64,000 nucleotides of DNA, taken from positions 1 through 64,000 of the forward strand of contig NZ_JAAIKE010000001.1 in the NCBI RefSeq assembly GCF_010915705.1, in the 5' to 3' direction. The DNA comes from Pseudotabrizicola algicola. Its GTDB lineage: Bacteria; Pseudomonadota; Alphaproteobacteria; Rhodobacterales; Rhodobacteraceae. The translations under genes and the position numbers were made by a program. Below the pieces are notes generated by a model. That model saw only the letters and a list, made by a program, of their open reading frames with translations. It made no database searches and had not been told where the DNA came from. Shown here piece after piece: positions 1-35,538 of the stretch (positions are counted from its first letter, which is position 1; every line of letters starts with the position of its first letter).

Positions 1-1
1 C

Positions 2-1963: not shown

Positions 1964-1965
1964 CT

Positions 1966-4287: not shown

Positions 4288-4299
4288 GAATTGCAAAGG

Positions 4300-4323: not shown

Positions 4324-4345
4324 TCGGACATCGAAGAGACCCTCC

Positions 4346-4765: not shown

Positions 4766-4789
4766 CCCCGACAACCCGAGGAGAACACC

Positions 4790-5728: not shown

Positions 5729-5730
5729 GA

Positions 5731-8823: not shown

Positions 8824-8826
8824 GCC

Positions 8827-9924: not shown

Positions 9925-9929
9925 CTTCC

Positions 9930-12092: not shown

Positions 12093-12101
12093 GACCTCGA
12101 C

Positions 12102-16067: not shown

Positions 16068-16077
16068 GGGCCATCCC

Positions 16078-18046: not shown

Positions 18047-18811
18047 CTAAATTTTGCGGATGACCTTGGTTTCAATCAACGCATGGAGGTGCGCGCGAAG
18101 CCCTGTTGGCACATGCCCACCGTTGATCACGACGCCCGCTTCCATGTTCTTTTCTAAGGCATGTCCAGTGAGATTTGCGCTGGTCAGGAACGCGGCTTTG
18201 CCGTCTGCTACCGCAACTTTCGCATGAACTCTCCCCTCGGTGAAAGGTGGCGGTCGCTCAGTCCAAACAAATAGCGCTGCCGAAGGCACATAACGCCGCA
18301 TGGTCGCAATCGGATCGACAGATAGGCTGCCCCCGTGACTCGATGACGTTTCCAAAAGAATTTGAATGTTGACGCCGCGATTTGACGCCGCATTCAACGC
18401 GTCTACGACCGAAGAAACGTCGTAGACCACGAAGCTTACGAGAAAGAGGTCGCTTTGCGCTAGACCGATGATGTCTAGAAGGACCTGTTCGGTGCGCCGG
18501 GTAGGAACGAATGGCGTAGTCGGACCTGTCCAGACAAGCTCGACTGTACTCTCTCGCTGTGACTTCTCTCGGGCAAAAGTCGCTCCGATCAGTATTCCGG
18601 CGAGTACATCTCCTGAGATGTCGGTCTGTTCCCAAACAGCAATGAGGCGATCAAGCGCTGCTCGAGCTGACGGAGTCGTCACAAGTTTGCGCAGGCTCCC
18701 AACACTCCCTGTCGCGTCCGATGTGCGGACACGAGCAGCGAGGGCTTCAATCCTAGAGGGTGACAACAGGGTCACGAGGTCTGCGGCAGCAATCAGCAAG
18801 GCATCCATCAA
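18047..18811 (-). CDS. drmC: DISARM protein DrmC, phospholipase D-like
   Basis: A 254-residue PLD-superfamily protein with a single HKD motif near the C-terminus: His196, Lys198, Asp203 (HAKVAVAD) followed by Asn213 and Glu224. One motif per chain implies dimerisation to build the active site, as in Nuc-type nucleases. A putative nuclease, it is the third core DISARM component. The N-terminal 100 residues are helical and typical of DrmC. Its start overlaps the drmB stop by four bases and its end faces the phage tail fibre gene 43 bp away. Confidence 0.88.
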   Translation of the reverse strand: MMDALLIAAADLVTLLSPSRIEALAARVRTSDATGSVGSLRKLVTTPSARAALDRLIAVWEQTDISGDVLAGILIGATFAREKSQRESTVELVWTGPTTPFVPTRRTEQVLLDIIGLAQSDLFLVSFVVYDVSSVVDALNAASNRGVNIQILLETSSSHGGSLSVDPIATMRRYVPSAALFVWTERPPPFTEGRVHAKVAVADGKAAFLTSANLTGHALEKNMEAGVVINGGHVPTGLRAHLHALIETKVIRKI

Positions 18812-20649
18812 ATGCTCCCGAAGAATGCCGCATCGGGGTTTTCGAGCGTGGGTACGACAAGCGCGCGATCGAGGTGGCGGTTCCCTCGCTCACACGACGT
18901 CTCAGAGACGAACGAACAGGCGTGACATGCTGCTCCGTGAAGAGACTGGTCCTTGCTCGGGTCGTGTTCTGCGCAGAGTGGGTCCGAGGCGCAGATGTGG
19001 GCGCGATCCAGAGCTTGGCGCAGAAGTCTTCCGAGATTCTCAGGCTTCCCGAGCTCCACGAGACCACCGAGAGTTCCATCCGAGTCCGCAGCGGCCGTGT
19101 AAATGAGAAACCCGGCTTGATCCCTGCCGTCATCTACGTCTGCATAAATGCGCTCACGAATGCTAGCGGCATTGTATCCGCATTCCAACGCCAATTCCCG
19201 GATCAGCATGTGGGCTAGAGTGTGCAGCATGACATAGCGCACCCCTGGATAACCTTCGTTTGGATCCAGATTCCTCTTTTGGCGCCAGCCGCGATGACCT
19301 TGTCGGAGCCGCGAATCGAGAGCTTTTACAGGATCTTTATCTGCCCAAGCCTTCAAAGCATCCGTGTCGAAGCGAATGAAAATCCCTTCACCGTGAACTT
19401 GAGTCGCGGGCACCCAATTCGGCGCTGCACGCGCGAGAGGCGCTCGCGGGGTGGCCTGGTCTCCTGTGCCCTCGTCGGGGGACTCGACCCTCGTGAACCC
19501 AAGAAGGGCATTTACCTCACGTAGCCGCTCCAAGAGCAGCACGCGTTTGATTGCCGAACCGAAACCCGTGGGAATCCCAACTTTCGTACTCATGAAATGG
19601 GGATAATCGGTGGGAGGATTCTCAGCGGTGAGGACGTCCCATTCTGGTCCTTTCAGGTCACGCTGATCGACGTCCGATCCGCCGTTGCGATGGTTTTCGA
19701 TAGCAGACCAGATTTGCTCGTCAGTGAACTGCTCGATGCCGGGCAACTGAGCGGTCTTTCTCAGCGTCTTGACGACAAACGCCACTTCCGCTGCTGAGGC
19801 GACGTCGTCAAAGAATGTCCAACCGTCCGCGACGAGTTGCGCAATAGGGCTTCCGACTTGCGGGATGGCGAGGACCGAAAGCGTAACCGGAAACCAGCTG
19901 TTGGTCGCCCCTAGGAGGATGGCCCGAGGATCATTGGCACAATCATCGTCGTAGCGGTCGATATGCGGGTGTCGGCCACGACAGGCTGGTAGATTGTCGC
20001 GTCCTGCTTGACCGAAGGCCTGTGACATATTTTTGGACGCACCGCAGCCATCGCATTTGACCCAAAGGTTTTCAGTCTGCAGAGAAGCTCCGCTCTCGAA
20101 GAACCTCAGTGTTGCACGGCAGGTACTGGGCCCACCGTGAACGAACCAGTGCCAGGCAAAGTCATCCAAATGACCGGCGCGACAAGCCATCAGGAAGCGC
20201 GCCGGAACAGCGTCCGCATCCCTGGCCCGTTGATCGTTGTTTGACCCCCGGCACCCTTCATGAACGAAACGCGTCAGCTCAGGACGGTATCTATTTTCCT
20301 TCAGCTTGAACAAGCCTGCGTCATAGGGCGAAAGCAAACCGCATTTGACGCAGCGAAGCCATCGAGGGAAGGGCTTAACCGGCACGCCGATCAGGGCCGC
20401 CGCCGAAAACGGGTCTGTGATTTCCCTCTCGCCCACGGGTGGCATGCGCAGCGACTCGACCTGAGGCCCGAGCACGCTTCTGACATTGGCGAGCAAACGA
20501 GCCTCTTGAATCGGCTGGCACCTATCTTTTTCCCAGCGGTCGATCCCCATCGTGACAACCGACATATTCGGTAGGTCGATGAGGGCGCCTGGTCCATAAG
20601 TCCAAAGCAACTGGCTCGGACGAATTTCTCCTACGGGTGTCCTACTCAT
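18808..20649 (-). CDS. drmB: DISARM protein DrmB, DUF1998
   Basis: A 613-residue DUF1998 protein that partners with the helicase DrmA. It begins MSRTPVGEIRPSQLLWTYGPGALIDLP, the usual DrmB start, has a first zinc-binding Cys cluster (WLRCVKCGLLSP, later VKCDGCGA) and the C-terminal DUF1998 signature with VRYVMLHTLAHMLIREL and a Cys-rich end (CASDPLCAEH, HGAACHACSF, ETSCERGN). The ATG at 20649 overlaps the drmA stop; an in-frame start 39 bases further upstream is less likely because it lies inside drmA. DrmA and DrmB form a complex that binds DNA, with loading favoured by a 5' overhang according to published structural work. Confidence 0.92.
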   Translation of the reverse strand: MSRTPVGEIRPSQLLWTYGPGALIDLPNMSVVTMGIDRWEKDRCQPIQEARLLANVRSVLGPQVESLRMPPVGEREITDPFSAAALIGVPVKPFPRWLRCVKCGLLSPYDAGLFKLKENRYRPELTRFVHEGCRGSNNDQRARDADAVPARFLMACRAGHLDDFAWHWFVHGGPSTCRATLRFFESGASLQTENLWVKCDGCGASKNMSQAFGQAGRDNLPACRGRHPHIDRYDDDCANDPRAILLGATNSWFPVTLSVLAIPQVGSPIAQLVADGWTFFDDVASAAEVAFVVKTLRKTAQLPGIEQFTDEQIWSAIENHRNGGSDVDQRDLKGPEWDVLTAENPPTDYPHFMSTKVGIPTGFGSAIKRVLLLERLREVNALLGFTRVESPDEGTGDQATPRAPLARAAPNWVPATQVHGEGIFIRFDTDALKAWADKDPVKALDSRLRQGHRGWRQKRNLDPNEGYPGVRYVMLHTLAHMLIRELALECGYNAASIRERIYADVDDGRDQAGFLIYTAAADSDGTLGGLVELGKPENLGRLLRQALDRAHICASDPLCAEHDPSKDQSLHGAACHACSFVSETSCERGNRHLDRALVVPTLENPDAAFFGSI

Positions 20650-23600
20650 TGCTGATCCTCCTCGGGCTGCGTCACCCGCGGGCGCCAAGTCGGATCACTT
20701 GTCGAGCGGTCGTCTTCCATTACGAGCCGAACTCCTGGCTCGACTTCGCGCATGGACATTGGAACCGTCCAATTGGTCCAAGGCTTTGTTCCCGGCACTG
20801 ACAGGAGCGGATAGGATGTGGGGCCCGCGCCATGCTTTTGATAGACGAGCGTGCGGCCACCGACGCCAGATTCTTTAGCCCAATCGTCAGCACGACTCTT
20901 CATCGCGTCTTCAGTGAGCTTCTTCTTTTGCGAGTCCTCGGTCACTTCCCACGTCCGGGCAGCGACGGCGCCTACCGTTTCCAGCATTTCATTGCGACTG
21001 GGACTGTTCATGGCGCCAGCGCCGTCATTGGGTGCAAAGGGGTCATAGGCGTGGCGCATGATGGAGAGCATTGCCCCTGTGAGACCGCGATCCAGAGCTC
21101 GCGGAGAGAACGGGGTTACGGACTGGGCCTCGACATGTTGATAGAAGGTCGCGTGATAATGCTCGAAGGTCTCATAGTGCGACAGATCACGAGGCCGTGC
21201 CCATGTCAGCACGGTGGCTACGAGGCCCGGCGGTGTCCGGCCAACACGGCTGGTTGCCTGAATGTACTCTGCCGTGCCCTTCGGTTGACCATTTACCACC
21301 ATGACACCGAGACGATTCACGTCGACACCGACAGACAGCATGTTCGTTGCAAGAACTGCATCGATTGGCCGGGCATCTCCGGGGTTCCTGTTGTTTACCC
21401 ACTTTCCAAGTGACGGGTCGAACATGCCGTCGAAGGGGACCTCGAGCCGGTCAAGGTATCGAGGAATGTCTTGGCTAGAGACGCGAGAAGTTAGTTCGCT
21501 GATTTCCTCCACTCTACGCTGCGAAAGCCCGGGCCGGTCCACCAAGCTCATTTCGACACGGAAGGAGCGCGTTTGGACGTCGTCTTCCGCCAAACGCTTC
21601 ATCCCACCGAGCTCTCGCAGCGAATTGAAGTAGCCTACGAGGGTCATGTAGGGGTCGGCAACCGGGCCGAACCGGTCAAACAGCGCTTGTGCAGCGGTGA
21701 GGAATGCAGTGTAGGTCCTGATAAGAACCGCAGGGCGGGAGCTGCCGGGTGCGCAGATTCCCATGTACCGTCGGCCCGGCTTCTCGCCGATAGATCTCTG
21801 GACCGAGAAGAAATTGTCCTCGACGTCCAGGCCGGAAGGCGGAAACACGGAAATGCGGCGCATGAACACATTACGCACCTGGTCGTCGGCCCGCCGTACG
21901 GTGGCTGTCGAAGCGACGACCTTTGGGCGGACCTTCTTGTCGCCCAGAGCCCAACTGCTCAGCTCGTCGACGGCCGTTTCGTAAAGCCCCACCATGGTGC
22001 CCAACGGACCGCTGATGAGGTGGAATTCGTCCTGGATGATCAGATCTGGCGGTCGGATTGCGCGAACCGGCTTCACACTGGCAGCCGGATACATCCCCCT
22101 TGCTCTGTGCCCGGTACCACAGTCGTGACTCGGCCAGAGCAAACCATGTCGCCCGCATTCCTGCTCCACGCGGCCGAAAAGATTCCGAACTTCGGGGCGC
22201 CACGCCATCATCGCGAACTTGTCCACGGTTGCGATCATCATCGTCGGCGGGCGGTGATAGATCTCCTCGTCGACGACTTTCACGGGAAGACCCGGATGGG
22301 GCTGCCCGCTGGATTTGGCCTTCGAGAAATCGCAGCTACCGAGCTTATCGCCGCAGTGAATCAATGTCCGGCCCGCAATCCTGTCGACCTCTATGTCGCG
22401 CCCGCCTGAAATCTCCGAACCACACCAAGGGCAGCTCGTCAGCTGCGCTGGTGATGCAATGCCTGACTTGTTGCGGTCGTTGTTTCGAATGGCCTCGACA
22501 GCCTGGTGAGACGCTTCGGTCGTGCCCGGTGTCACGCGATTGCCGACCCAGAGACCGAGCGTGAAAGGTTCCGTGCCCCAGGTCTTGTCGTCTGCACGAC
22601 GGATGACCTCCATCGCGCACAGCAGCGTCGTGGCCCGCTGGAATTGTTGTAGCGTCAGAAGGCGCAGCGTGTAGCGCATGATGACTGCGAGACCGCGTGA
22701 AGCGTCGAGGCCGCCTAGATCATTTTTCAAGCGGCGCATGGCCATGGCGAAGGCCGCCACACCGAGATAGGCTTCGGTCTTCCCGCCACCCGTCGGAAAC
22801 CAGAGGAGGTCCGCGAACGCCTCGACCGGCTTCGTCCGGTCCGGATGAGCGGGATCGGCCAGGGACGGGATCGATAGCAGCAGGAATGCCAGCTGGAACG
22901 GGCGCCAAGACCTGTTCTTGGGCACGTCCAATGTGCCCACGTCGACGGTCTCGTTCCGTCTGCGCTTCAGGGCGTAGATGCTTCGGACGCGCTGCATCGC
23001 CATGGAGCGGTTGGCGAAGCGGAATGCCTCCAGCGCCTTCGGATCAGCAAAGAGTGTTTCCATCCCATCTCGTAGACGACACAGGATCTCCTGGCAGCGC
23101 TCGATGACATCTTTACCTGGATTATCGAAGCCGGTGATCTCCGCACCCAACCGGGCATTCTGTTCGCCGATCCAAACGGCATAATCTTCAACGAGACACG
23201 AAAGGGCGTCGCGCAGCGCGTCCGGCGCCATCTCCGCCAGCCGCGTCATGTCGAGCCAGCCCTCGTCAACCATGCGTTGCATGGCTGGGCGATCCCTGGG
23301 ATCGGAGCCGGGAGTTTCGGTCACGGCTACTTCGTAGCGCGGGATGATCTCGGTTCGGACGCGGTGCGCTTTCGTAGGGTCGTCTGAAGTCGTATCGGCG
23401 TGAACGGAAACGCCGTGCCCAACCGAGAACTCCAGCCGGTTACGATAGATGAGGGCGAGACGGTCGCGTTCGGGGTCATCGACGACCACTTCGTTGGAGG
23501 GGCGACGCCGGAAGACCGATTTGTCATCCTGATCTTCAGGGGCCTCGACGGTGATCTCGGGCTGGAAGAGCCAGGCGCTATCCTTGTTGTCCTCGGGCTC

Positions 23601-24635
23601 CAGCTGTCCGTTCACGAGGAACAGAGTGACGAGACGCTCACCCTTGTTGTTCGTCCGAACCGTGCCTTGAAGCCGAACATCCGGTTGGTCGGGGTCGGGG
23701 ATAGACGGGGGGAGCGGCCCATCGATCAACGGCAGGGGGACGACACCGCCACACGGGACGCGCTGCCATACCTTGACCTTCACCTGTTCTTCTCGGCCGG
23801 TCTGGCGATTGCGCCGGGTCTTGGTGATGTCGTGCTCTGCATTGGGGACCCGTTCGTAACGCCCCCACCGGGCGTCTACCGCCAACGATTGAACGTCTGC
23901 GGCGACGCAGAAGGTCAGTCCCATGCTCGAAGGCACCAGCGACTGGTTGTTCGTCGTGTCGATCTCGTCGAGCGCGTCGTCTTCTGGCTCCACCCGGCCG
24001 GTGGCAGTCGGGAACTCCGCCCCGGGCTCGTGGAGGGGTGCGGCACGCTCTTCCTCGAGGTCGCCCGCCTCATCGGCACCGGAAGCCGGCTCCACATGCG
24101 CGGCCTGATCGTCACTCGGGCGTCGGGGTGCCAACTTGCCAACCAGATAGCGATCGCGGACGCTCATGTCCTTGATGAGCTCGTGCGGCCCTTCCGCTGG
24201 GCCGAGCAGATCGTCTCGCACCGAGACCTCGAGAAGATCGCGAACGTAGGTCACGTCTTGGATCAGCGGCACCGCGTCGGGTGAAGCAGCGCCGAGCGAA
24301 GGCAGTACACGAAGGAAATCATCCCATGGCAAACGTGTCGTCGGGGCGCTCGGCGCGGTCAGGCCGAGCGCGGTCAGGGGAACCGCCGGACCAACGGCAT
24401 GAGCCTGGTCGAAATGGATGGTGCGACCGCCGGTATCCGACCGGACGCGCAGAATGCGTCCGACGATCCTTACCGCGTCGTCGGACCCGACGATGATTGC
24501 CCAGTCACCAGGAGCGACGGCGGTTTCGTGGGTCGGGCCGAGTTCGATCCGGAGTGCACGTCCGTTGCTGGCAGGCTCGCCATGGAGGATCCACGCAGCA
24601 TTCTGGGGGGCGGCTTGTTCAATCAACTCGGTCAT
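20646..24635 (-). CDS. drmA: DISARM helicase DrmA
   Basis: A 1,329-residue superfamily 2 helicase. Walker A is FPTGGGKTEAYLG near residue 615, the DEAD-box-like motif II is IIQDEFHLISGPLG near 865, motif III ASTATVRRA follows, and the C-terminal helicase lobe has ATNMLSVGVDVNRLG and QATSRVGR. A zinc-binding insertion (SCPWCGS about 735, HCGDKLGSC about 765) separates the motifs. A long N-terminal domain with an acidic linker precedes the motor. An ATG three bases after the preceding stop was preferred over an in-frame TTG at 24641. DrmA with DrmB is the DISARM core. Confidence 0.93.
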   Translation of the reverse strand: MTELIEQAAPQNAAWILHGEPASNGRALRIELGPTHETAVAPGDWAIIVGSDDAVRIVGRILRVRSDTGGRTIHFDQAHAVGPAVPLTALGLTAPSAPTTRLPWDDFLRVLPSLGAASPDAVPLIQDVTYVRDLLEVSVRDDLLGPAEGPHELIKDMSVRDRYLVGKLAPRRPSDDQAAHVEPASGADEAGDLEEERAAPLHEPGAEFPTATGRVEPEDDALDEIDTTNNQSLVPSSMGLTFCVAADVQSLAVDARWGRYERVPNAEHDITKTRRNRQTGREEQVKVKVWQRVPCGGVVPLPLIDGPLPPSIPDPDQPDVRLQGTVRTNNKGERLVTLFLVNGQLEPEDNKDSAWLFQPEITVEAPEDQDDKSVFRRRPSNEVVVDDPERDRLALIYRNRLEFSVGHGVSVHADTTSDDPTKAHRVRTEIIPRYEVAVTETPGSDPRDRPAMQRMVDEGWLDMTRLAEMAPDALRDALSCLVEDYAVWIGEQNARLGAEITGFDNPGKDVIERCQEILCRLRDGMETLFADPKALEAFRFANRSMAMQRVRSIYALKRRRNETVDVGTLDVPKNRSWRPFQLAFLLLSIPSLADPAHPDRTKPVEAFADLLWFPTGGGKTEAYLGVAAFAMAMRRLKNDLGGLDASRGLAVIMRYTLRLLTLQQFQRATTLLCAMEVIRRADDKTWGTEPFTLGLWVGNRVTPGTTEASHQAVEAIRNNDRNKSGIASPAQLTSCPWCGSEISGGRDIEVDRIAGRTLIHCGDKLGSCDFSKAKSSGQPHPGLPVKVVDEEIYHRPPTMMIATVDKFAMMAWRPEVRNLFGRVEQECGRHGLLWPSHDCGTGHRARGMYPAASVKPVRAIRPPDLIIQDEFHLISGPLGTMVGLYETAVDELSSWALGDKKVRPKVVASTATVRRADDQVRNVFMRRISVFPPSGLDVEDNFFSVQRSIGEKPGRRYMGICAPGSSRPAVLIRTYTAFLTAAQALFDRFGPVADPYMTLVGYFNSLRELGGMKRLAEDDVQTRSFRVEMSLVDRPGLSQRRVEEISELTSRVSSQDIPRYLDRLEVPFDGMFDPSLGKWVNNRNPGDARPIDAVLATNMLSVGVDVNRLGVMVVNGQPKGTAEYIQATSRVGRTPPGLVATVLTWARPRDLSHYETFEHYHATFYQHVEAQSVTPFSPRALDRGLTGAMLSIMRHAYDPFAPNDGAGAMNSPSRNEMLETVGAVAARTWEVTEDSQKKKLTEDAMKSRADDWAKESGVGGRTLVYQKHGAGPTSYPLLSVPGTKPWTNWTVPMSMREVEPGVRLVMEDDRSTSDPTWRPRVTQPEEDQQ

Positions 24636-24637
24636 TT

Positions 24638-24868
24638 TCAATCACTCTCTGAAATGCGGTAGCGGGCGCTGCGGCGTTCGCCCTGACGTTCGACGGTGCC
24701 GTGCGCCAACAGATCATTGATCGCGGTACTCCACTGGGCGCCATGAATTTCAACACAAGCGCGAGTGTCCGACTTCCCAAGCCAGCGGCAATTTGCTCCG
24801 ACTGGCATGGATGCCCATTCTGGTACGGAAAAGAAGTAGGAAATTTGGCTATCTATGCACGCCATCAT
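24638..24868 (-). CDS. Small protein between drmMI and drmA, possible winged helix
   Basis: 76 residues, coupled at both ends: its start overlaps the methyltransferase stop and it ends three bases before drmA. The C-terminal part (WSTAINDLLAHGTVERQGERRSARYRISE) has the helix-turn then basic beta-wing pattern of winged-helix domains; the N-terminal half is unremarkable, with two cysteines (Cys4 and Cys27). I do not know a named DISARM component of this kind. It could be a detached DNA-binding domain of the methyltransferase or helicase, or a regulator. Its position in a tightly packed operon argues that it is expressed. Confidence 0.6.
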   Translation of the reverse strand: MMACIDSQISYFFSVPEWASMPVGANCRWLGKSDTRACVEIHGAQWSTAINDLLAHGTVERQGERRSARYRISESD

Positions 24869-27213
24869 TCGTCTTCCGTTTCCAATTCAACCCCTTCATT
24901 TTCTACGGGTTCGCCAAAGTTTCTAGCGAATGCTGCTGTTACACTGGCGGCGCTCACCGAATACGCACGACAAATTACAGCTTCGATTTCTTCAGGCGAG
25001 CTTGATGCGATTTCTCCTAGATCCAACTTCTTAGGCACTGGAAATGCGGAAATTTGTGGCGGCCCAAACCTCAAGTAGCCTCCGGAAAGCGCTAGCCCGC
25101 TGTAGAGACCAAAATAAATCAGAGCCGCGATCCTGGAATTCAGGATCGCTGTTATTGCGCTCAAATCTACTGTCTCTTTTGGGTCGTAGACTATTACCGT
25201 TGACTTCCCCGAAAGGTACTCCCCATTTGCATCGAGTGCTGCAACAGGACGCTTGGCCATACCCGATATGATTACTTTCGGTTTTTGAGCCTGAGTCCGG
25301 CGACCCTCTGGAATTTGGTTGAGGTTGACAACAGGTTTGTCAAACCGACTTTTCAAATATTGGACTGGAGCAACATCCCAAGTAGTGCGGAAAGGCCGAA
25401 TGTTCCCGCTCACGACAAACCTACAAAAATTGGGTGGCACCTCTGTTCCGCCTAATTCCCTTACCGCAGGCTTTATTTCATAGGCTTCTGCCACGGTAGC
25501 CGCGCCAGATACCGTGGCAAGAGATCCAAGCGGTCTGGTATTCAGCAATGCAGCCTCAACAAGTTCCGCAAAGTCCGTAAGAATAAATGCCCACAGATAT
25601 GACGGTGCTTTCGCAAAGGCTGATTGCTTCACAAAACGGCGCGGTCCCTTTTGCATTACCTCAATTGAGCAGTCGGCATCGGTCTTCTTTCGCCTCAGAA
25701 CCAAGACCACCGGATAGACGCTCGCTGAAAATACCTTGATCGACGAATAATCTGAAATGGCCTGTATTTCCGCATCCCTGATGAACAATCCCCTGAGGGC
25801 TTCTGCATACTCGGCGCTCAATATTTTATTTGGAATAATGAACCCAATTACTCCCTCACGTCCGCAAATGCGAATGGCCTGTTCGAAGAACAGCACATAG
25901 AGATCATAAGTTCCCTTCGCCGATTCATAATCCACAGTAAGAAATTTCTTCAAATTCCCGGATTCGTCAGCATCCGATAGCACCACGGCGTTAACATAGG
26001 GGGGGTTGCCAATGATCGCATCAAAGCCACAATCGCCATCAAGGAACACCTCAGGGTACTCAAGGGGCCAATGGAAAAAGTCATCCCTCCTCTTCTTTTC
26101 AACGCTACCACCGGTCGAGAAAAGCTTGTCGGCGTCGGAAGCTAGAACCTGTAGTGCGGTTCTAAGTTCGCGTGCCTTCTTTGAGTGATTAATCGAAGAG
26201 CGAACCAATCTGTCGGCTAATTCGAAGGTCGCATTCAGGATTTCCCTTGATTCCCTGTCAAGCGCGGCCATCGCATCCACATCCCCGATGTCCCGGATGG
26301 GGATTGAGCGCAAGCGGGTGCGCAGTTCGATGGCCTTGTCGACAGCAGCCTGAATACTCCGGCCAAACAACCTGAGCTGCTTGGACCCCTTCGGGACCAT
26401 GCTGAGTTCGGTCAGTTGCCGGATGTCATGGATCCCGAGGAGGCTGTCTCCGCTGCGCAGGTTGTGGTCGAGGAAGCCAAAGGGCCGCCCCTTTGACATG
26501 GTGGTGAGCCAGAGCGAGAGCTTGGCCAGCTCCACGGCAAGCGGGTTCTTGTCGACGCCATAGAGGCACCGTTCCGCTACGAGGCGACGTGCGACGATCG
26601 CGCGTTCCTCGACGTCCTGCGACAGCGGGTCGAACCCCTCGGTCGCATCATCGAAGATGCGTCCTTCGCTGTCGATCCGCTTGCCGTCGGCCTCGGCCGC
26701 CGCCCAGGCCTCGACCAAGCGGTCGGAGAGCCAACGGCACGCCTGCACCAGGAAGGCGCCGGACCCCATCGCAGGGTCGCAGATCTTGAGATCCAGCAGC
26801 TCTTCGGCGCTCTTCAGCTCCCAGTCCTCGGGCACCTTGCCTTCGGCCGGGCCGCGGTAGGCGACCGGCGTCAGCGTTTCTGCGACGATCTTTTCGGTCA
26901 GGCTCTTAGGCGTGTAGTGCGTGCCGCTCTCGCGCCGGTCGGCACCGAGGACTACGACGAACGCGCCCTTGTGGTGCACGAGCGGATAGCCCCAGGGGTC
27001 GGTCCGCAGTAGCGGCGCATAGGGTAGAATGCGGTCGCGCAGACCGACATCACCACGACAGACGCTGAGCAGACGTGCCGCAAGCCGATCGTCGGCCGTC
27101 CGTTCGAGGGCGTTGCGGATGGCGGACTCCGATCGTTCGCTCCGCTCCTTGAGCAGTTCGGCCACTCTGACAGCGCCATCGAGTCGCGCCGACTCCATTT
27201 CGCCGAGCGTCAC
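24865..27213 (-). CDS. drmMI: DISARM adenine methyltransferase DrmMI, catalytic part
   Basis: A 782-residue N6-adenine DNA methyltransferase of the Eco57I/PglX type. SAM-binding motif I is DPAMGSGAFL near residue 146, the catalytic motif IV is NPPY near 410, with an SGTHYTPKSLTEKIV motif upstream (about 97) and a C-terminal target-recognition region ending in GYLRFGPPQISAFPVP. It marks host DNA as self for DISARM. It starts at a GTG overlapping the previous stop, and the residues before motif I are short compared with full-length relatives, so the preceding gene probably supplies the missing N-terminal domain. The 3' half (about 24,865-26,300) is visibly richer in A+T than the rest. Confidence 0.85.
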   Translation of the reverse strand: MTLGEMESARLDGAVRVAELLKERSERSESAIRNALERTADDRLAARLLSVCRGDVGLRDRILPYAPLLRTDPWGYPLVHHKGAFVVVLGADRRESGTHYTPKSLTEKIVAETLTPVAYRGPAEGKVPEDWELKSAEELLDLKICDPAMGSGAFLVQACRWLSDRLVEAWAAAEADGKRIDSEGRIFDDATEGFDPLSQDVEERAIVARRLVAERCLYGVDKNPLAVELAKLSLWLTTMSKGRPFGFLDHNLRSGDSLLGIHDIRQLTELSMVPKGSKQLRLFGRSIQAAVDKAIELRTRLRSIPIRDIGDVDAMAALDRESREILNATFELADRLVRSSINHSKKARELRTALQVLASDADKLFSTGGSVEKKRRDDFFHWPLEYPEVFLDGDCGFDAIIGNPPYVNAVVLSDADESGNLKKFLTVDYESAKGTYDLYVLFFEQAIRICGREGVIGFIIPNKILSAEYAEALRGLFIRDAEIQAISDYSSIKVFSASVYPVVLVLRRKKTDADCSIEVMQKGPRRFVKQSAFAKAPSYLWAFILTDFAELVEAALLNTRPLGSLATVSGAATVAEAYEIKPAVRELGGTEVPPNFCRFVVSGNIRPFRTTWDVAPVQYLKSRFDKPVVNLNQIPEGRRTQAQKPKVIISGMAKRPVAALDANGEYLSGKSTVIVYDPKETVDLSAITAILNSRIAALIYFGLYSGLALSGGYLRFGPPQISAFPVPKKLDLGEIASSSPEEIEAVICRAYSVSAASVTAAFARNFGEPVENEGVELETEDE

Positions 27214-28550
27214 ACGCGGGCTCTGGCCTTCGATCCGCCATCTAGTTCGAGTGTGACGTCATCGACGCGCTTCACAGTGCGCTCGAGGAGGCCCTCGTAG
27301 ACATGCCCGATCTGTTCCACGTCGAGCGCGCGGTAGGACAGCGTGCGACCTTCGAAGATCTGGATCGCGTCCAACAGCAGGAGAACGGTGCGATCGTCGA
27401 TCGGCAGTGGTTCGGCCGGATCGCTTCGCCAACTCGTACCCTTCTTCCGCCCTTCGAGGAAAGGATAGCGATCCGGGTCGAACAGAGAACCTCCGAGCGC
27501 CGGTAGCTGCAGGGTCGGGTGATCGATCCCGCCATACACGCCGCGAAACAGGGCGAGCAGCCGCGACCACGCGGACCGACGGCGCTCGAGGATTTCCTCG
27601 GAGTCCGCGCGCAACTGCATCCGGAGGCTGGAGATGGCGTAGAAGGCGTCGTAACGCGGGTCGCCGAGCAGCAGTAGGGCGCGTTCCTCGGCAGCCAGCA
27701 AAAACACGAGCCGCATCATCACGGTCAGGCCGGCCTCATAGAGCTCTCGCGGATCGACGTCACGCAAGAGTTCGCGATTTCGGTCCTGGTCGGCGCGGTC
27801 GAGAGCCTGGACGAGTACTTCGACGGCGCGGCGGACTTGTTCTCCGAGCGCTTCGGTAACGTCATCCTGATGCTTCAGGGATCGTTCATAGAGCGCCGGA
27901 AGCTTGCCGTCGTCGGGGCCGAAAAAGCGGCGGACGCCCAGAAGGCTGACGAATGCCCGCAACGTTTCTGGTTCCTGACCCCAAAGGCGCGCATACCAGC
28001 TCGCGAAGCTTGCCACGGCGCCTACGGGCGCGTGGACGAGCATCCAGCGCTCGCCATTGGTGACGACGCCAGTTGGACATCCAGTCGCCCGGAGCAGAGC
28101 GACCATTCGATCGGCCGGGGTAATCGCCAGGCCATCGAAGCGGCGCGTCGCATCAAGATCAGTATCGGGTCCGTAAACTTGGATGAGCAGGAGCGGCTCG
28201 TCGGAGTTCGTGGGGTTCACGATAGCCAGATCGGGCGCGACTTCGACCCCGTGTTCTGGCAACGAGACAGTCAGCTGCTCGGGCAGCGCCACCCCCCTGC
28301 GAAGGACCGTCTCGTCCATCTCGAGAGCATTTATCAGCACATCATCTATCCAAGCCGCGTGCAGCGCGGAAAGGTCGAGATCGTCTGTGTCGACTGCATC
28401 ACGCCATTCCTCGTAGGTGCGCCGAAGTCGCTGAGGTCGTCCCGAGTGCAGCGCCTCGAGGCCTTGAGGAAAGACGTCGCGCAGCACGGGCACCGCGAGG
28501 AAGGGCCCTGATACTTCGATCAGGTTCAGCCATTCGTGATCGTTGCTCAT
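27210..28550 (-). CDS. DrmMI N-terminal half-like protein, separate gene
   Basis: A 446-residue protein without methyltransferase motifs. The N-terminal 200 residues look like a nuclease- or PglX-type N-terminal region (PDLAIVNPTNSDEPLLLIQVYGPD, then GVVTNGERWMLVHAP, resembling the restriction-enzyme-like fold of Type IIG proteins), followed by a helical domain ending VEQIGHVYEGLLERTVKRVDDVTLELDGG. The last motif (GHVYEGLLE) normally precedes the HYTP methyltransferase motif in one polypeptide in Type IIG/PglX enzymes. I infer a split DrmMI in two overlapping genes; a sequencing or natural frameshift at 27,210 is the alternative. Confidence 0.65.
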   Translation of the reverse strand: MSNDHEWLNLIEVSGPFLAVPVLRDVFPQGLEALHSGRPQRLRRTYEEWRDAVDTDDLDLSALHAAWIDDVLINALEMDETVLRRGVALPEQLTVSLPEHGVEVAPDLAIVNPTNSDEPLLLIQVYGPDTDLDATRRFDGLAITPADRMVALLRATGCPTGVVTNGERWMLVHAPVGAVASFASWYARLWGQEPETLRAFVSLLGVRRFFGPDDGKLPALYERSLKHQDDVTEALGEQVRRAVEVLVQALDRADQDRNRELLRDVDPRELYEAGLTVMMRLVFLLAAEERALLLLGDPRYDAFYAISSLRMQLRADSEEILERRRSAWSRLLALFRGVYGGIDHPTLQLPALGGSLFDPDRYPFLEGRKKGTSWRSDPAEPLPIDDRTVLLLLDAIQIFEGRTLSYRALDVEQIGHVYEGLLERTVKRVDDVTLELDGGSKARARV

Positions 28551-31500
28551 CTGCGCTTCTCCGTCGCGAGGGAATCCGGAACCAGCAGCACGACGGCCAC
28601 GGGGAACGTATGGTCGACGGCATTGGAATGCCGTTCCTCGATCGCCTTCAGCTCCTGCTCGCGCTCGTTCGGGATTCTGGCCAAGCGTGCTTCCAGGGCT
28701 GCAAGGTCGCGCTTGAGCTGCGTCCGTTCGTCTTCTGAGAAAAGTGAGAGCTGGACGGGTATTTGCTCTGCGGCGATCTCGGTTTTCAGCGCCTTTTCGA
28801 GGTCGTCCAGAACTTGGCGGATGTCCTCGGCTTCCTTGCGCTTGCGGGTCTCGATCGTGTTCACCAGAAAACGGAGACGGTCCTTGGATCGAGCGTCGAC
28901 GGCCGCCAAAATGCTATCACGCTGCTTGTCGAAACGTGTCCTCAAGGCGTCGAATGTTGCATCCGACAGTGCCGCAGGCTGAGATTGTTCGAGCCAACGC
29001 CGAACTTCCGTGACCCCCTCACGTCGGAAACCGGTATCACGCATATAGCCGCCAGCCTCCGTGAGCTCCTCGTGCAGGCGGTGATGGTTCCCGCCGGTCA
29101 CGACGAGCCGGGACATCACCACCACGGCTGGTCCTTCGATTTCCCCATCCGGGAGAGAGCGTACGGTTGCCCGGTGGAGCTTCTTTACGTCGTCACGGGC
29201 CCAGATTTCCGCGCGCAAGAGCCGCAGGCTCATCTGAACAAGTCGATGGTTGAGGTGAATGAGGACGACGTCATCTCGTCCCTTGGCCACATCGTGGTCG
29301 AAGGTGATGGGGCGGACCTTCTGTGTATACGGGTGTTCTAGCCCCTCAAGGCAACGGGACCAGGAACCCGAGAGGGGCGGCATTCGGAAAACCGTGCCAT
29401 CCGGAGCGCCCGTCAGGGAAACGGGTTCCAGGTCAGGTTTGTCCGCAAGACGAAGTGCAGTGCTGACGGCGCGCTGAATGTGGTCGGGCACGAGGCTTTG
29501 TTCACGTCGAGTCTCGCTCAGCCGTTCGTGGAGTTTTGCCACACGATCGCGAAGATCGCGTTCAGCCTTCACGAAACGGCGAGACTTCTCCATGCGTATT
29601 TCGGCTTCCCTCGTGTCCAGGTCACGGCGGCGTCCTTCAAGCAAATCAGGTAGTTGCGGCGCAATGACTGGATTTACGCTGCCCATGTCGGCGCGCATCG
29701 CATCCAGCTTGCGGAGCGCGCGCAGGATGTCGTCGCCTTGGCCGCCTTCGGCATCTACCGGATGCCATATGACGACTTCGCCGGCGCGTTGCCCATGGCG
29801 GTCGATGCGGCCGTTCCTCTGTTCCATTACATTCGGGTTGTATGGGATTTCGAGGTGGATCATCAGATGGCAATGGTTCTGGAGGTCGATGCCTTCTGAT
29901 GCAGCATCTGTCGCCAGCAAAATCCTGACCGGGGATTCCGAGGGGTTCGCTTGGAACGCGGCCTTCACGCTCTCGCGTTCTTTTGGGTCCATGCCGCCAT
30001 AGATGAGAGCCAACCTGTCGCCCCCGAAGCCGTTCGATGCGAGGATCTCCTGCATCCATTGCTGAGTGGCGCGATACTCCGTGAACAGGATCACTCGTTC
30101 ATTCGTCCATCTGTCACCGTCCTTCAGGTGACTGGCCAGCCAATCCAGTACGGCGGTGGCCTTGGCGTCGGACCGACGAGCCGCCTGCTGAGCCCAGGAT
30201 CGCAGCCGGTCAAGCATCCGGCGTTCTTCGTCGGTCGGTGGCCGGACGTGCTTGCCTGCTTCCTCAATCGCTTCCGCCTCGGCGGCGTCGCGCTGCGCGT
30301 CGTCCGCGTAGTCCTCTTCGGTCTTGGCTATCGCTCGCCGAAGAATGCGGTCATCGAATTTTTTCTGGCTGCGGTCGCTAACCGAGCGACCTTCGATCGT
30401 CGCTATATGCCGCTCCAGCGTGGCGGCGAACGCAGCAGGAGATGATGATAGGCGCTTGCGCAGCAACTGGTGTACGAAGTGATCGACGGCCCGTCCTCCA
30501 TCAGCACCGCCTTCGCGGCTCTTGATGTATGCGTCGAGTTGGCTCCGGGCATTCCTCTCGTCGCCCTCATATTCTACCGGCAATGCCTCAAGTCTCCGCT
30601 CGGGATAGATGCGCTTGCCGTTGGCGTCGACCAGATCGCTCTTTAGCCGACGGACCATAACGCGGGTCAACTGGGGGTCACTCGGAAGGACATTTCTCGC
30701 GAACCTCTGATCGTCGAGAAGCTCAAGGAGCGCGGTGAAGGATTCAGTATAGCCGTCATGCGGCGTGGCCGTGAGAAACAGCTTGTGTTGGAAGTGTGGC
30801 GCGGCCAGACGAACAAGCCGCGTCCTGAGGCTTTCGACGGCATAGCGGCCGACGGTCGGGGCGACGTTGTGAGCCTCGTCGATGATGAGCAGGTCGAACT
30901 TCCTGGGATGGCTCACATGCGGGGGCAGTGCGTCCCGCAGAAGGCGCAATCCTTCGCCCTGTTTGGCCCAGTCCACTGAGGTGATCAGACGGGGAAAAGA
31001 CGTCCACGGATTAGCGTGGAGACCGCGCTCGCGGCGCAAACGCTTGACATAGTCCGTATCGACGATCCGGAACTCGAGCCCGAACTTCTCCTGCATCTCG
31101 ACTCGCCACTTTTCCTGCAAGGAGGCAGGGCAGAGCACGAGGACCGTGCGGGCGCGGTGACGCAGGAGCATCTCTTGAATGACGAGCCCGGCCTCAATGG
31201 TCTTGCCGAGGCCGACGTCGTCGGCGATCAGAAGATTGGTGCGCGCCATGTCGATTGCTCGCACGAGCGGATCCAGTTGGTAATCTTCGATGCTTACACC
31301 GCTGCGGAATGGGGCCTGCAAATAGCCCCGATCAGCGTTCGTCGCGGCACCCCATACGACTGCATCAAGGAAGGCTTGCAGTGTCGAAGGGTCGTCCAAG
31401 CCGGTCAAGCGAGGCAAACCGGCCCTCTCGATGACATGAGCTCCTGGCTCGAGCTCCCAGAGGACCTCAATCTCTTCGCCGAGCGCATCCTCGTCGATGG

Positions 31501-31663
31501 AGGCCAACCGGACGAGATGCCGTTTGGGCAAACCGGGTGCGACCGACCCGCCGTTGACTTCCGAGACCATCCATTGGCGACGACGAGCCTCGACGAGTTG
31601 GCCCGGTTCCGGCGCAGCAGAGTGAGCTACCGCGGCCATCAATTCGTCTGCTGTCATGGTCAT
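28547..31663 (-). CDS. drmD: DISARM SNF2-like helicase DrmD
   Basis: A 1,038-residue SNF2-family ATPase, the class 1 DISARM marker. Motif I is ADDVGLGKTIEAG near residue 150, motif II IIDEAHN near 265, motif III FLTATPHDG, and the C-terminal lobe has LLATDAASEGIDLQ and QRNGRIDRHGQ. A long C-terminal region with coiled-coil-like charged helices follows (from about 760). It overlaps vsr at its start and the next gene at its end, each by four bases. Its motor is likely to act on DNA with the DrmMI methyltransferase, an inference from class 1 gene association. Confidence 0.92.
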   Translation of the reverse strand: MTMTADELMAAVAHSAAPEPGQLVEARRRQWMVSEVNGGSVAPGLPKRHLVRLASIDEDALGEEIEVLWELEPGAHVIERAGLPRLTGLDDPSTLQAFLDAVVWGAATNADRGYLQAPFRSGVSIEDYQLDPLVRAIDMARTNLLIADDVGLGKTIEAGLVIQEMLLRHRARTVLVLCPASLQEKWRVEMQEKFGLEFRIVDTDYVKRLRRERGLHANPWTSFPRLITSVDWAKQGEGLRLLRDALPPHVSHPRKFDLLIIDEAHNVAPTVGRYAVESLRTRLVRLAAPHFQHKLFLTATPHDGYTESFTALLELLDDQRFARNVLPSDPQLTRVMVRRLKSDLVDANGKRIYPERRLEALPVEYEGDERNARSQLDAYIKSREGGADGGRAVDHFVHQLLRKRLSSSPAAFAATLERHIATIEGRSVSDRSQKKFDDRILRRAIAKTEEDYADDAQRDAAEAEAIEEAGKHVRPPTDEERRMLDRLRSWAQQAARRSDAKATAVLDWLASHLKDGDRWTNERVILFTEYRATQQWMQEILASNGFGGDRLALIYGGMDPKERESVKAAFQANPSESPVRILLATDAASEGIDLQNHCHLMIHLEIPYNPNVMEQRNGRIDRHGQRAGEVVIWHPVDAEGGQGDDILRALRKLDAMRADMGSVNPVIAPQLPDLLEGRRRDLDTREAEIRMEKSRRFVKAERDLRDRVAKLHERLSETRREQSLVPDHIQRAVSTALRLADKPDLEPVSLTGAPDGTVFRMPPLSGSWSRCLEGLEHPYTQKVRPITFDHDVAKGRDDVVLIHLNHRLVQMSLRLLRAEIWARDDVKKLHRATVRSLPDGEIEGPAVVVMSRLVVTGGNHHRLHEELTEAGGYMRDTGFRREGVTEVRRWLEQSQPAALSDATFDALRTRFDKQRDSILAAVDARSKDRLRFLVNTIETRKRKEAEDIRQVLDDLEKALKTEIAAEQIPVQLSLFSEDERTQLKRDLAALEARLARIPNEREQELKAIEERHSNAVDHTFPVAVVLLVPDSLATEKRR

Positions 31664-32094
31664 GGTTGGGCCCCATTCTTTCTGCGTGCGCGTACGAGTT
31701 CTGCAATGCGGCTCGCGGCGTGGTTGGCATCTTCATGCTCCCAGATGCGAACCGACTCCCACCCAAGAGCCTGCAGCCGTTGGTCAGTGTCTGCGTCCCG
31801 TGAGCGATTGGTTTCGATTTTCTGGCGCCAGAAATCGGCGTTGCTCTTAGGCCAAGAGGCATGCTCGGGACACCCGTGCCAAAAGCATCCATCGACGAAC
31901 ACGGCAATCTTGGTCGCAGGAAACACGATATCTGCGATGCGTCTGGGCTTCGCCAGAAGTGGAACATGGAGCCGATAACGCAGGCCTTGGGCATGCAGAG
32001 CCTTGCGGAGATTCAGCTCCGCTCGCGTGCCCTTTTGCCGCACGCGCGCCATTCTACGGCTGGCCTCAGGCGACGAGGGGCTTGCATTCGCCAT
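31660..32094 (-). CDS. vsr: Very short patch repair (Vsr) endonuclease
   Basis: A 144-residue Vsr-family nuclease that nicks next to T:G mismatches arising from deamination of 5-methylcytosine. Conserved features are visible: RMARVRQKGTRAE at the N-terminus, Asp55 (ADIVFP), the zinc and catalytic block VDGCFWHGCPEH with Cys70, His73, Cys75 and His78, then NADFWRQKIETNRSRD and a C-terminal WEHED. It overlaps the cytosine methyltransferase gene by 29 bases, the usual dcm-vsr pairing. Presence in a DISARM operon suggests it counters mutation from the 5mC mark. Confidence 0.93.
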   Translation of the reverse strand: MANASPSSPEASRRMARVRQKGTRAELNLRKALHAQGLRYRLHVPLLAKPRRIADIVFPATKIAVFVDGCFWHGCPEHASWPKSNADFWRQKIETNRSRDADTDQRLQALGWESVRIWEHEDANHAASRIAELVRARRKNGAQP

Positions 32095-33160
32095 TGAGCG
32101 ATTGTCTTTCCGAATTCAGGTCGGCATCAGAAAATTGCTGAAGATGGGCAATGATGCTTCGCCCAATCACTTCGCCCAAGGTTACTGGGACGGCGTTACC
32201 AATCATTCGACCCAAGGATTTAAAATGGATAGGCTCGCCCTCAGGCACGAACGAATAGGTCGTAGGGAAGCCTTGGAGGATCGCGCCCTCTCTCAATGAA
32301 ATTGCTCTGTCTTGGTCCGGGTGCCCAAATCGTCCGTTCCCGAACCCGTAATATTGAGTAGTCAGAGTCGGCGCAGGGTTGTCCCACTCCATCCTGCCGT
32401 AAACGCCAGGGTACGTCTTGCCGCTATCTTTCTTATGACACGCGGCGACCAGATGCTCTGGCCAATCACGCCAAGAACCGCCGGGCTTGGAAGCACGAAT
32501 ACGTTCGACGTTTAGCGGCGACAGCCGCGATGCGGTATGTAACGGGTCTGCGGAGCAACTCTCGCCATGGGAAATCGGCGGCAGATCTCCAATTGCATCA
32601 CGTACGCTTCGCGCATGTTCCAGATCAGGTGCGGCGGTGCGAATGGGCCCAAATTTTGAAGCAAGCAAGACCATGCGTCGCCTCGTCTGGGGAAGGCCGT
32701 ATTTGATGCAGTCAATGACCTCTCTATGAACGAAGTATCCCTGACTTTCGAGCGAAGCTGAGAAATCGTCGAAGACGGCGTGTTTCGCAACGGTTGGGAC
32801 ATTCTCCATGGTAACGATGTCTGGACGCGTCTCTTTCACCAGTCGGTCGAACTGATAGAGAAGCCCCCAGCGTGGGCTGCTGAGCACGTCGTACCTCTGC
32901 GAATATGTAGAGAAGGGCTGACACGGGGCACATCCGGCAAGGACCTTTACCCCGCCATTCCCGAAAAGCTCGTCGAGTCTCGCACCGGACACCTTGCTGA
33001 TGTCCTCTTTGATGAAAATGGCATCATTATTGAACTCGAAAGGGTGTCGGCAACTTTCCTCGATGTCGACGCCAGCTACGACATTGATGCCCTCTTTCTC
33101 GAGGCCGTGGGTCAATCCACCGGCACCGCAAAAAAGGTCAATGCAAGTAACGTCCTTCAT
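32066..33160 (-). CDS. DNA (cytosine-5) methyltransferase (DrmMII/Dcm-like)
   Basis: A 364-residue C5 methyltransferase with the motif order of the family: motif I IDLFCGAGGLTHGL, motif IV APCQPFS with catalytic Cys80, motif VI Glu119 (MENVP), motif VIII QTRRRMV and motif X GNAVPVTLGE. A variable target recognition region lies around residues 190-280. The target sequence cannot be read from the protein. It is the second gene of the operon, 30 bp after the HTH gene, and overlaps vsr. Class 2 DISARM has a 5mC enzyme (DrmMII), so its presence in a class 1 operon is notable. Confidence 0.92.
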   Translation of the reverse strand: MKDVTCIDLFCGAGGLTHGLEKEGINVVAGVDIEESCRHPFEFNNDAIFIKEDISKVSGARLDELFGNGGVKVLAGCAPCQPFSTYSQRYDVLSSPRWGLLYQFDRLVKETRPDIVTMENVPTVAKHAVFDDFSASLESQGYFVHREVIDCIKYGLPQTRRRMVLLASKFGPIRTAAPDLEHARSVRDAIGDLPPISHGESCSADPLHTASRLSPLNVERIRASKPGGSWRDWPEHLVAACHKKDSGKTYPGVYGRMEWDNPAPTLTTQYYGFGNGRFGHPDQDRAISLREGAILQGFPTTYSFVPEGEPIHFKSLGRMIGNAVPVTLGEVIGRSIIAHLQQFSDADLNSERQSLNGECKPLVA

Positions 33161-33190
33161 TCATCTTCTCACTTTTCGCCTGGTTTGTGA

Positions 33191-33379
33191 TCAGGCGCTT
33201 AGGTCGTCGGCGGCCTTTCCGTTTCTGACCCATTCGTCGATTTCGTCAGTCTTGAATTTCCAAAGTCGACCGACCTTGTGCGCTGGCATCTCGCGCTTGG
33301 AAATCCACCCGTAAACAGTATCTTTGCTGACACCGAGATAATCAGCGATCTCCTCGACGGAGAGCCAGCGATCAGTCAT
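33191..33379 (-). CDS. Small helix-turn-helix protein, first gene of the DISARM operon
   Basis: A 62-residue excisionase/MerR-like HTH_17 protein: LSVEEIADYLGVSKDTVYGWI is the helix-turn-helix, and VGRLWKFKTDEIDEWV the wing and recognition extension. Proteins of this sort control operons or act in excision; its place 30 bp before the methyltransferase makes a regulator of the operon the likely role. Direct repeats about 60-90 bp upstream (33,440-33,469) could be its operator. An excisionase role for the element cannot be excluded. Confidence 0.8.
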   Translation of the reverse strand: MTDRWLSVEEIADYLGVSKDTVYGWISKREMPAHKVGRLWKFKTDEIDEWVRNGKAADDLSA

Positions 33380-33661: not shown

Positions 33662-33862
33662 TCAGCCCCCGGCCTTGTCCGGTGCGATCTCGCTCAGCTC
33701 CCGGTTTTCGAATGCCACGACATCCTCCATCCGGTAGATAACGCGGCGTCCGATCTTGATGAAGCGAGGTCCGTCACCAAGAGAGCGCCAGTATTCGAGG
33801 GTCCTGTGGCTGATCCTCCATCGTGCTGCCAGCTCGATTTGGGTCAGACGTGTGTCAAACAT
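33662..33862 (-). CDS. AlpA-like helix-turn-helix regulator
   Basis: A 66-residue AlpA/excisionase-family protein: TQIELAARWRISHRTLEYW (helix-turn-helix), GPRFIKIGRRVIYRMEDVVAFE (wing). The start ATG at 33862 has a good AAAGGA ribosome binding site. These small proteins regulate integrase or excision functions of prophages and integrative elements. It diverges from the plus-strand cluster beginning at 33950 and precedes the DISARM leader gene on the same strand, with about 280 bp between them that hold no convincing gene. Confidence 0.75.
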   Translation of the reverse strand: MFDTRLTQIELAARWRISHRTLEYWRSLGDGPRFIKIGRRVIYRMEDVVAFENRELSEIAPDKAGG

Positions 33863-35463: not shown

Positions 35464-35538
35464 TGGCTCCGGCGGTAGGGATCGAACCTACGACCAATTG
35501 ATTAACAGTCAACTGCTCTACCGCTGAGCTACGCCGGA
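35464..35538 (-). tRNA. tRNA-Asn (anticodon GTT)
   Basis: Read on the minus strand, a complete cloverleaf of 75 nt including an encoded CCA: acceptor stem TCCGGCG / CGCCGGA, D-arm GCTCAGCGGTAGAGC, anticodon loop CTGTTAA with anticodon GTT, and T-arm GGTTCGATCC. Its 3' end points to the prophage/DISARM side, which makes it the likely attachment site of the element. The matching 3' repeat was not found in this window. Confidence 0.95.

Follow-up and report, generated by a model that had tools for sequence, protein, structure and literature searches.

A recurrent class 1 DISARM sub-variant with cytosine-5 methyltransferase and Vsr genes before drmD, in a probable prophage cargo slot of Pseudotabrizicola algicola

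Overview

The first 64,000 nucleotides (nt) of contig NZ_JAAIKE010000001.1 of Pseudotabrizicola algicola (Rhodobacteraceae; assembly GCF_010915705.1), hereafter the window, contain a DISARM operon on the minus strand, running from 33379 to 18047 in the order HTH_17, cytosine-5 methyltransferase (C5M), vsr, drmD, drmMI (in pieces), drmA, drmB and drmC (Table 1). The best explanation, to which a probability of about 0.8 is given, is that this operon represents a recurrent sub-variant of class 1 DISARM, in which a dedicated C5M and a Vsr-family endonuclease are the first enzymes encoded, and that it occupies a cargo slot beside a phage module. What is new is the recurrence of vsr in DISARM, no description of vsr in a DISARM operon having been found in searches of an openly licensed collection of papers. 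The 5-methylcytosine (5mC) and 6-methyladenine (6mA) chemistries are already known together in one DISARM operon: the 'hybrid' nature of the gene set, presented as new in an earlier sequence-only reading of this DNA, is preceded by the Serratia operon with both 5mC and 6mA enzymes described in the available text of PMC9142583, according to which DISARM operons carry DrmMI and/or DrmMII.

Organization of the operon

The C5M, Vsr, DrmD, DrmA, DrmB and DrmC assignments are based on scores above the curated NCBIfam cut-offs, that of DrmMI on PADLOC and Pfam, and that of the helix-turn-helix (HTH) protein on Pfam. The profile scores of drmD, drmA, drmB and drmC place the operon in class 1, and DrmE is absent among the PADLOC matches listed for the operon proteins (best 25 per protein). 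The best PADLOC match of C5M is DrmMII (PDLC02651, 303 bits), but a general MTase_II model scores 286 bits; the two large pieces of drmMI match DrmMI with 900 and 569 bits. The guanine-plus-cytosine (GC) content of the operon genes is 0.55-0.63, except for a part of drmMI discussed below (about 0.50), compared with 0.69 in the phage module to the left and 0.67 in the chromosome to the right.

Table 1. Features of the window and of related cargo regions
Feature	Position	Strand	Matches and remarks
HTH_17 protein, 62 amino acids (aa), encoded first in the operon and probably its regulator	33191..33379	-	PF12728 68 bits; PHROG 66
Cytosine-5 methyltransferase (C5M, DrmMII-like), 364 aa	32066..33160	-	PF00145 182 bits; TIGR00675 124 bits (cut-off 101)
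Vsr-family endonuclease, 144 aa, VDGCFWH variant	31660..32094	-	TIGR00632 119 bits (cut-off 98)
drmD, SNF2-like helicase, 1038 aa	28547..31663	-	NF038317 1362 bits (cut-off 610)
drmMI N-terminal piece, 446 aa	27210..28550	-	PADLOC DrmMI positions 1-451
drmMI middle piece, 782 aa, adenine methyltransferase domain	24865..27213	-	PF07669, PF12950
drmMI C-terminal tail left-over, 76 aa	24638..24868	-	PHROG 25988 positions 1377-1424 of 1429
drmA, YprA-type helicase, 1331 aa	20646..24641	-	NF038325 1461 bits (cut-off 950)
drmB, DUF1998/MZB protein, likely start 20649	18808..20688	-	NF038324 761 bits (cut-off 240); PF09369
drmC, phospholipase D (PLD)-type protein, 254 aa	18047..18811	-	NF038319 249 bits (cut-off 133)
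Phage head-tail module	1..18003	+	PHROG 122, 8462, 778, 329, 4271, 13925; PF13547, PF13550, PF10983
Last tail gene (DUF2793)	16078-18003	+	part of the phage head-tail module
Excisionase-like HTH at the far edge of the cargo slot	33662..33862	-	PF12728 29 bits; PHROG 66
tRNA-Asn, possible attachment site	35464..35538	-	
Zorya of sibling C29	G000:C29:48385-56751 (L211 2385-10751)		directly after sibling tail gene
Cargo of sibling C2	G000:C2:66001-77668 (L200 2-11669)		after sibling tail gene
ARMADA-like set of G549	G549:C11 (L219 4721-18243)		named after PMC12458937, as far as its available text goes

Overlaps of 4 nt join vsr to drmD, drmD to the N-terminal piece of drmMI, this piece to the middle piece, and the middle piece to the small open reading frame (ORF) that follows it; the three 3' junctions of the operon overlap by about 4 nt, the exact figure varying with the start codon assumed. 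C5M and vsr overlap by 29 nt, and a 30-nt gap separates the HTH gene from C5M. The single gene run with four-base overlaps described in the sequence-only reading thus stands by profile for HTH, C5M, vsr, drmD, drmA, drmB and drmC and holds at most junctions, but not at those on either side of C5M, and the 'drmMI-like pair' and the 'small ORF' within it were misread. The vsr/drmD overlap reads ATGA, as it does at the same junction in the Kaistia (L010), Brevundimonas (L030) and Caldimonas (L011) loci introduced below, and because the two genes overlap, no end of transcription is possible between them. A scan for promoters and terminators gave counts no higher than in shuffled sequence.

Recurrence of C5M and vsr at drmD loci

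A census searched with iterated profiles assembled 84 drmD loci (the best 80 of 580 confirmed candidates, two further loci and two plasmid loci), many of them truncated by contig ends, and its counts cover the whole stretch taken (up to 10 kb per side, more for plasmids), not direct neighbours only. Where DrmD is at least 55% identical to that of the window, C5M is present in 10 of 10 loci and vsr in 8 of 10; in the remaining loci the figures are 3 of 74 and 1 of 74, at least 2.5 kb of upstream sequence being present in 62 of the 74. The full order HTH-C5M-vsr-drmD recurs in Caulobacter (L009), Kaistia, Brevundimonas, the betaproteobacterium Caldimonas and a Microvirga plasmid (L089), that is, in five loci besides the window, and in six viral loci, which answers with yes the question, raised in the sequence-only reading, whether this order is found again in other genomes. 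L007 has C5M-vsr-drmD with the HTH side outside the stretch examined, and L040 (Anaerolineae) also has C5M-vsr-drmD, while Solidesulfovibrio (L012) and Lelliottia (L025) have C5M-drmD without vsr. Homologs of the HTH protein precede C5M in L009, L010, L011, L012 and L030 and in 9 of the 11 viral loci. Other arrangements exist: vsr is divergent from C5M-drmD in Arthrobacter (L038), vsr and C5M are placed after drmC on a Deinococcus plasmid (L090), and an opposite-strand vsr lies between drmB-like and drmD-like genes in L198 (G492, a genome of the same class as L038), a locus that came up from sampling on the Vsr side and not from the drmD census. DrmD of the window's family is rare, occurring in 3 of 385 genomes of the window's class, its own genome counted.

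A scan of IMG/VR, whose contigs are viral by the prediction of that collection, found 12 relatives of DrmD, 11 of them strong. C5M is present at all 11 strong loci (in L233 only as a 25% partial match) and vsr at seven (L223, L224, L228, L229, L230, L231 and L233). Among the proteins tested, phage tail families precede the operon in L224, L225, L229 and L232, and an endolysin gene lies directly before it in L224 and L229; the tested proteins of L230 and L231 had no PHROG match, and the one from L223 matched nothing but families whose function is unknown. Predicted viral contigs of several kinds thus carry DISARM with C5M, whether or not vsr is present.

Phylogeny and selection

In a tree of 77 C5M rows made by a quick method, the window protein belongs to a clade of 12 (Shimodaira-Hasegawa-like approximate likelihood ratio test, 99) with L007, L009, L010, L011, L012, L025, L030, L089, L090, L198 and L147. 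Eleven of these are linked to DISARM; around the C5M of L147, beyond which about 2 kb of contig are left, no DISARM gene was found. The C5M proteins of L026, L038, L040 and L070 fall elsewhere in the tree. Because the clade is so predominantly DISARM-linked, the window C5M can hardly be a remnant of a restriction-modification (R-M) system.

That C5M and vsr are nevertheless an independent type II R-M remnant, standing by chance before a class 1 DISARM set, is very improbable. Such neighbours are common outside DISARM: in a baseline sample of 115 genomes of Alphaproteobacteria, 17 of 28 Vsr places start less than 2.5 kb from a C5M (the same genomes have 73 C5M places, 17 of them with Vsr within 2.5 kb), and Vsr-like 'V elements' occur in some m5C R-M systems according to the available text of PMC10855626. 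A remnant would also be consistent with the greater divergence of the window C5M than of the window DrmD (dN, the nonsynonymous divergence, is 0.26 versus 0.049 to L009) and with the placement of vsr on the strand opposite C5M in L038 and L090. However, vsr overlaps drmD, one order recurs in Alphaproteobacteria, Betaproteobacteria and viral contigs, the stretch from C5M to drmD contains no gene for a restriction enzyme, and the C5M clade includes DISARM-linked members that have no vsr. A dcm-vsr pair as an unrelated neighbour was rejected on the strength of this clade, the census and the recurrence on viral contigs. The earlier attribution of C5M and vsr to the operon is upheld by the recurrent order, the overlap and the clade; the pair is not an independent R-M remnant in all relatives. 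A Vsr beside a C5M is ordinary, and what is unusual is its fixed position inside a DISARM operon.

The Vsr tree (75 rows, few columns) left out the short L101 and L118 and the second copies of DISARM loci (L158-L162, L165, L166). Eight rows with C5M-vsr-drmD (the window, L007, L009, L010, L011, L030, L089 and L040) form a clade with support 98/87, L040 being notable in that its Vsr is found beside drmD although its C5M belongs to another clade. The DISARM label requires at least 4 changes across the whole tree, and therefore Vsr probably joined DISARM more than once.

Where synonymous divergence (dS) is unsaturated, C5M and Vsr are under purifying selection: between L010 and L030, dN/dS is 0.045 for C5M, 0.09 for Vsr and 0.057 for DrmD.

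The Vsr-family protein and its possible roles

The window protein matches the structure of E. coli Vsr (1cw0) with E=2.2e-12 and keeps the N-terminal Glu, the Asp of the D-x-V stretch, the GCFWH motif and the later Arg-Asp, which we take to be active-site residues of the E. coli enzyme. The residue before GCFWH is Asp, aligned with His in E. coli Vsr; owing to this active-site variant, other substrates are conceivable. A literature search on Vsr with His64 found no paper. Asp is present in 18 of 18 DISARM-linked Vsr proteins read (10, 7 viral and L175; the motif being Asp before G[CN]FWH) and in 2 of 24 non-DISARM Vsr proteins with a readable motif from Alphaproteobacteria (27 loci tried). As a signature of DISARM it was rejected, being the common form in a sample of actinomycetes (28 of the best 30 loci, taken from 148 genomes, 54 with Vsr; L103 matched a chance motif). 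The source genome of the window has a second vsr-C5M pair (G000:C6:34950-36207; L091, L130), with Asn before GCFWH.

Judged from its family, the likeliest role of Vsr would be to guard against 5mC deamination. It might instead be an effector nuclease that nicks incoming DNA and so provides DrmAB with a 5' overhang or a single-stranded entry, which is improbable; equally improbable is the broader proposal that Vsr is a working part of DISARM that fills the nuclease role left open by the published model, paralleling the Vsr-type domains of ARMADA. In favour of an effector, DrmAB binds single-stranded DNA and 5' overhangs and not double-stranded DNA, according to the available text of PMC9142583, and Vsr-type nuclease domains are reported, in the parts available of PMC12458937 and PMC11090510, respectively, as fused to the YprA helicases of ARMADA and to the helicase of type III-B CoCoNuTs; the Vsr of L040, too, has stayed by drmD despite a C5M of an unrelated clade. 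Against it, the Asp form is that of ordinary actinomycete Vsr proteins, which have a C5M alongside in 19 of 28 cases; all 9 census loci with vsr also carry C5M; several close DISARM operons have no vsr; and the ARMADA-like helicase of G549, a genome considered below, has no match to the Vsr profile.

A broken drmMI gene with an exchanged target half

The 'drmMI-like pair' of the sequence-only reading is a single drmMI gene split by a one-base frameshift, located at the junction by a DNA alignment of nine sequences; one open frame crosses the junction in 13 of 13 relatives examined (12 and G295). Nor is the 'small ORF' a separate gene: its candidacy as a new gene was ruled out by its homology to the C-terminal tail of DrmMI in L011, L012, L021 and L090 (38-58% identity over 43-50 residues). 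The downstream piece starts with a GTG that overlaps the upstream stop codon, and therefore both peptides could arise by restart. The break could reflect separate peptides made by restart, a recent mutation or an assembly error.

Decay of the whole operon, with its defence function lost and the other genes persisting by linkage, is unlikely, though slightly less so than the alternatives considered for C5M and Vsr. The frameshift, the foreign segment described next and the left-over tail would all fit such decay. The remaining genes are open along their full length, however, and the N-terminal piece of drmMI is constrained like its intact relatives (dN/dS 0.053 to L007 and 0.069 to L009), to which the possible restart codon and the possibility of an assembly error may be added. 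It is doubtful that the source genome has two working methylation chemistries, because drmMI is broken in the window.

The target half of drmMI has been exchanged, with a sharp GC break at the boundary. The exchanged segment extends over about 24868-26253, from about residue 320 of the middle piece, which corresponds to about residue 766 in an intact DrmMI, and contains both the target-recognition domain and, at residue 403, the NPPY motif. Counted per 40 residues, identity to G295 is 75-98% on the upstream side of window position about 26253 and 15-52% on the downstream side, and at the same place GC drops from 0.63-0.67 to 0.46-0.52; alignment ends near residue 464, the joint fall of identity and GC being near 320. 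The same drop in identity is seen between the window DrmMI and those of L009, L089, L010 and L030. Pairs of relatives behave similarly: L010 and L030 are 85-100% identical per bin across 760 residues and 15-62% identical thereafter, and the identity of L009 and L089 drops past about 800 residues, while the change between L009 and G295 is milder (32-80% beyond the exchange point). C5M does not collapse in this way, being 90-100% identical per bin between L010 and L030 and mostly 80-95% between L009 and L089; in the latter pair, one bin in the second half of the protein is at 52%, and the first bin, in which the stop-to-stop frame extends upstream of the start, is at 30%. With the exchanged part as query, one plasmid search gave zero DNA matches and another gave eleven records, the best having 31% identity over 84%. 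With regard to a conceivable nuclease activity of the N-terminal half of DrmMI, no invariant acidic-acidic-lysine set is visible by eye in a 24-row alignment.

The phage setting and the cargo slot

The operon lies between the last gene of a phage head-tail module and a tRNA-Asn gene, a setting that escaped the sequence-only reading. The module encodes head decoration, tape measure and tail assembly proteins, a tail protein like that of gene transfer agents, and the DUF2793 tail gene, and it is 75-83% identical in DNA sequence to other copies within the source genome; the window begins at the first base of the contig, and the left part of the phage element is outside view. The DUF2793 gene has six copies in the source genome, one of them only a partial match, and different genes follow it in the sibling elements. 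On contig C29, the tail gene is followed by a complete type I Zorya (zorD, zorC, zorB, zorA), a WYL regulator and an integrase. The C2 sibling, on a contig with RepB, carries type III R-M genes, a further protein like a restriction endonuclease, and a helicase like DrmD_b, a partial stretch of which scores 698 bits, short of the cut-off of 950; C8 has an Orf5/HEC-06-like protein, a type I R-M system and an integrase; and the first copy on C28 has IetAS about 2 kb beyond the tail gene, while the two nearest proteins scanned at the second copy had no PADLOC match. In G549, a genome of another genus of the same family, HNH, DrmMI-like, DpdE/DrmD-like and DruE-like proteins are encoded behind a tail gene with 95% identity. 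Homologs of the excisionase-like HTH protein lie beyond the cargo in G549 (66%) and C2 (55%), and a WYL regulator, not present in the window, is common to C29, C2 and G549. These siblings make it most likely that the operon occupies a slot for defence cargo in a family of prophages. Neither this slot nor the exchange of the DrmMI target half was found described in a light literature search.

Two RNA matches were noted in passing. Rfam chrB-a matches 4173-4255 of the window (minus strand, 67 bits), inside the head-tail module. Rfam PYLIS_3, the pyrrolysine insertion sequence of mttB, matches 59571-59670 (44 bits, gathering score 38); as a guess, this perhaps reflects a non-pyrrolysine mttB homolog.

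Proposed function and points against it

We infer the activities of all the products, the self-marking role and the match of Vsr to the C5M target. C5M, together with DrmMI where it is intact, would mark self DNA, and DrmA-DrmB, with DrmD, would act on incoming unmarked DNA. Deamination of 5-methylcytosine would produce a T:G mismatch, at which Vsr may nick to start repair, keeping the permanent mark from turning into a mutation hot spot. Carriage on mobile elements may favour having C5M and vsr first, the mark then being laid before the helicases act. Unmethylated DNA stimulates the ATPase of DrmAB more strongly than 5mC DNA does, according to the available text of PMC9142583. The trigger loop is assigned to class 1 DISARM in the available text of PMC12458937; that of PMC9142583, which describes the loop, does not contain the wording 'class 1'.

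Several observations weigh against a dedicated C5M-Vsr sub-variant carried as phage cargo. The association of C5M and vsr with the window's DrmD family has a Fisher p of 3e-8 that takes no account of relatedness; vsr is missing from 2 of the 10 closest loci (L012, L025) and 4 of the 11 viral loci and is thus not required; and it may merely follow C5M, given how often the two are neighbours in the baseline genomes. The uniform Asp in place of the E. coli His means that the substrate of Vsr may differ, the dS of C5M is saturated in all four comparisons of the window with L007, L009, L089 and L010, and the broken drmMI leaves the 6mA half possibly dead or dependent on separate peptides. As to the slot, the window has no second copy of the 3' end of tRNA-Asn that could mark an attachment (att) site, the integrases of the sibling elements have no match anywhere in the window, and the window DISARM is found in 0 of 80 viral contigs with the tail gene (the best 80 of 249), of which 7 match other cargo proteins and many end just past the tail gene.

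On the reading preferred here, DISARM gains a repeatedly acquired partner, vsr, and the 5mC enzyme becomes a dedicated component of one branch of class 1, a branch located on phage-like elements, at a site where one defence system takes the place of another; the target half of the 6mA enzyme is swapped among otherwise near-identical operons. If true, this makes it possible to ask at what cost DISARM keeps a permanent 5mC mark and whether recombination alters its methylation code.

Comparison with known systems

Class 2 DISARM is defined by drmE and drmMII, the latter a 5mC enzyme. The window shares with it a 5mC methyltransferase, matched to DrmMII by PADLOC, but has the class 1 genes drmD and drmMI and no DrmE among the matches listed. 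In E. coli dcm-vsr and other R-M systems, a C5M gene adjoins a Vsr-family gene as it does in the window, and the repair logic is probably shared; the window pair differs in lying inside a DISARM operon, in the Asp before GCFWH and in the DISARM-linked clade of its C5M.

A close counterpart in gene order is plasmid pR24_2 of Microvirga terrae (NZ_CP102847.1), with HTH-C5M-vsr-drmD-drmMI-drmA-drmB-drmC and a DrmD 88.7% identical to that of the window. It differs in being plasmid-borne, in its undivided drmMI, and in two genes, one for an ATP-binding protein and one for an O-methyltransferase, that separate drmMI from drmA (L089 25250-27664); its record annotates vsr in the DISARM operon without comment. 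The DISARM operon of Serratia sp. SCBI resembles that of the window in having both methyltransferases, whereas Vsr is unmentioned in the available text of PMC9142583 and the window drmMI is broken and has another target half. The Lelliottia locus, taken here as the nearest stand-in for the Serratia type among the loci examined, has C5M directly before drmD and of the same clade as the window's, and no vsr was found in its stretch. Finally, the satellite-like elements that carry ARMADA and Druantia, as described in the available text of PMC12458937, likewise have a defence system as the exchangeable cargo of a phage-like element, but the slot of the window follows a DUF2793 tail gene, and its siblings in one genome hold Zorya, type III R-M with a DrmD_b-like helicase, or type I R-M.

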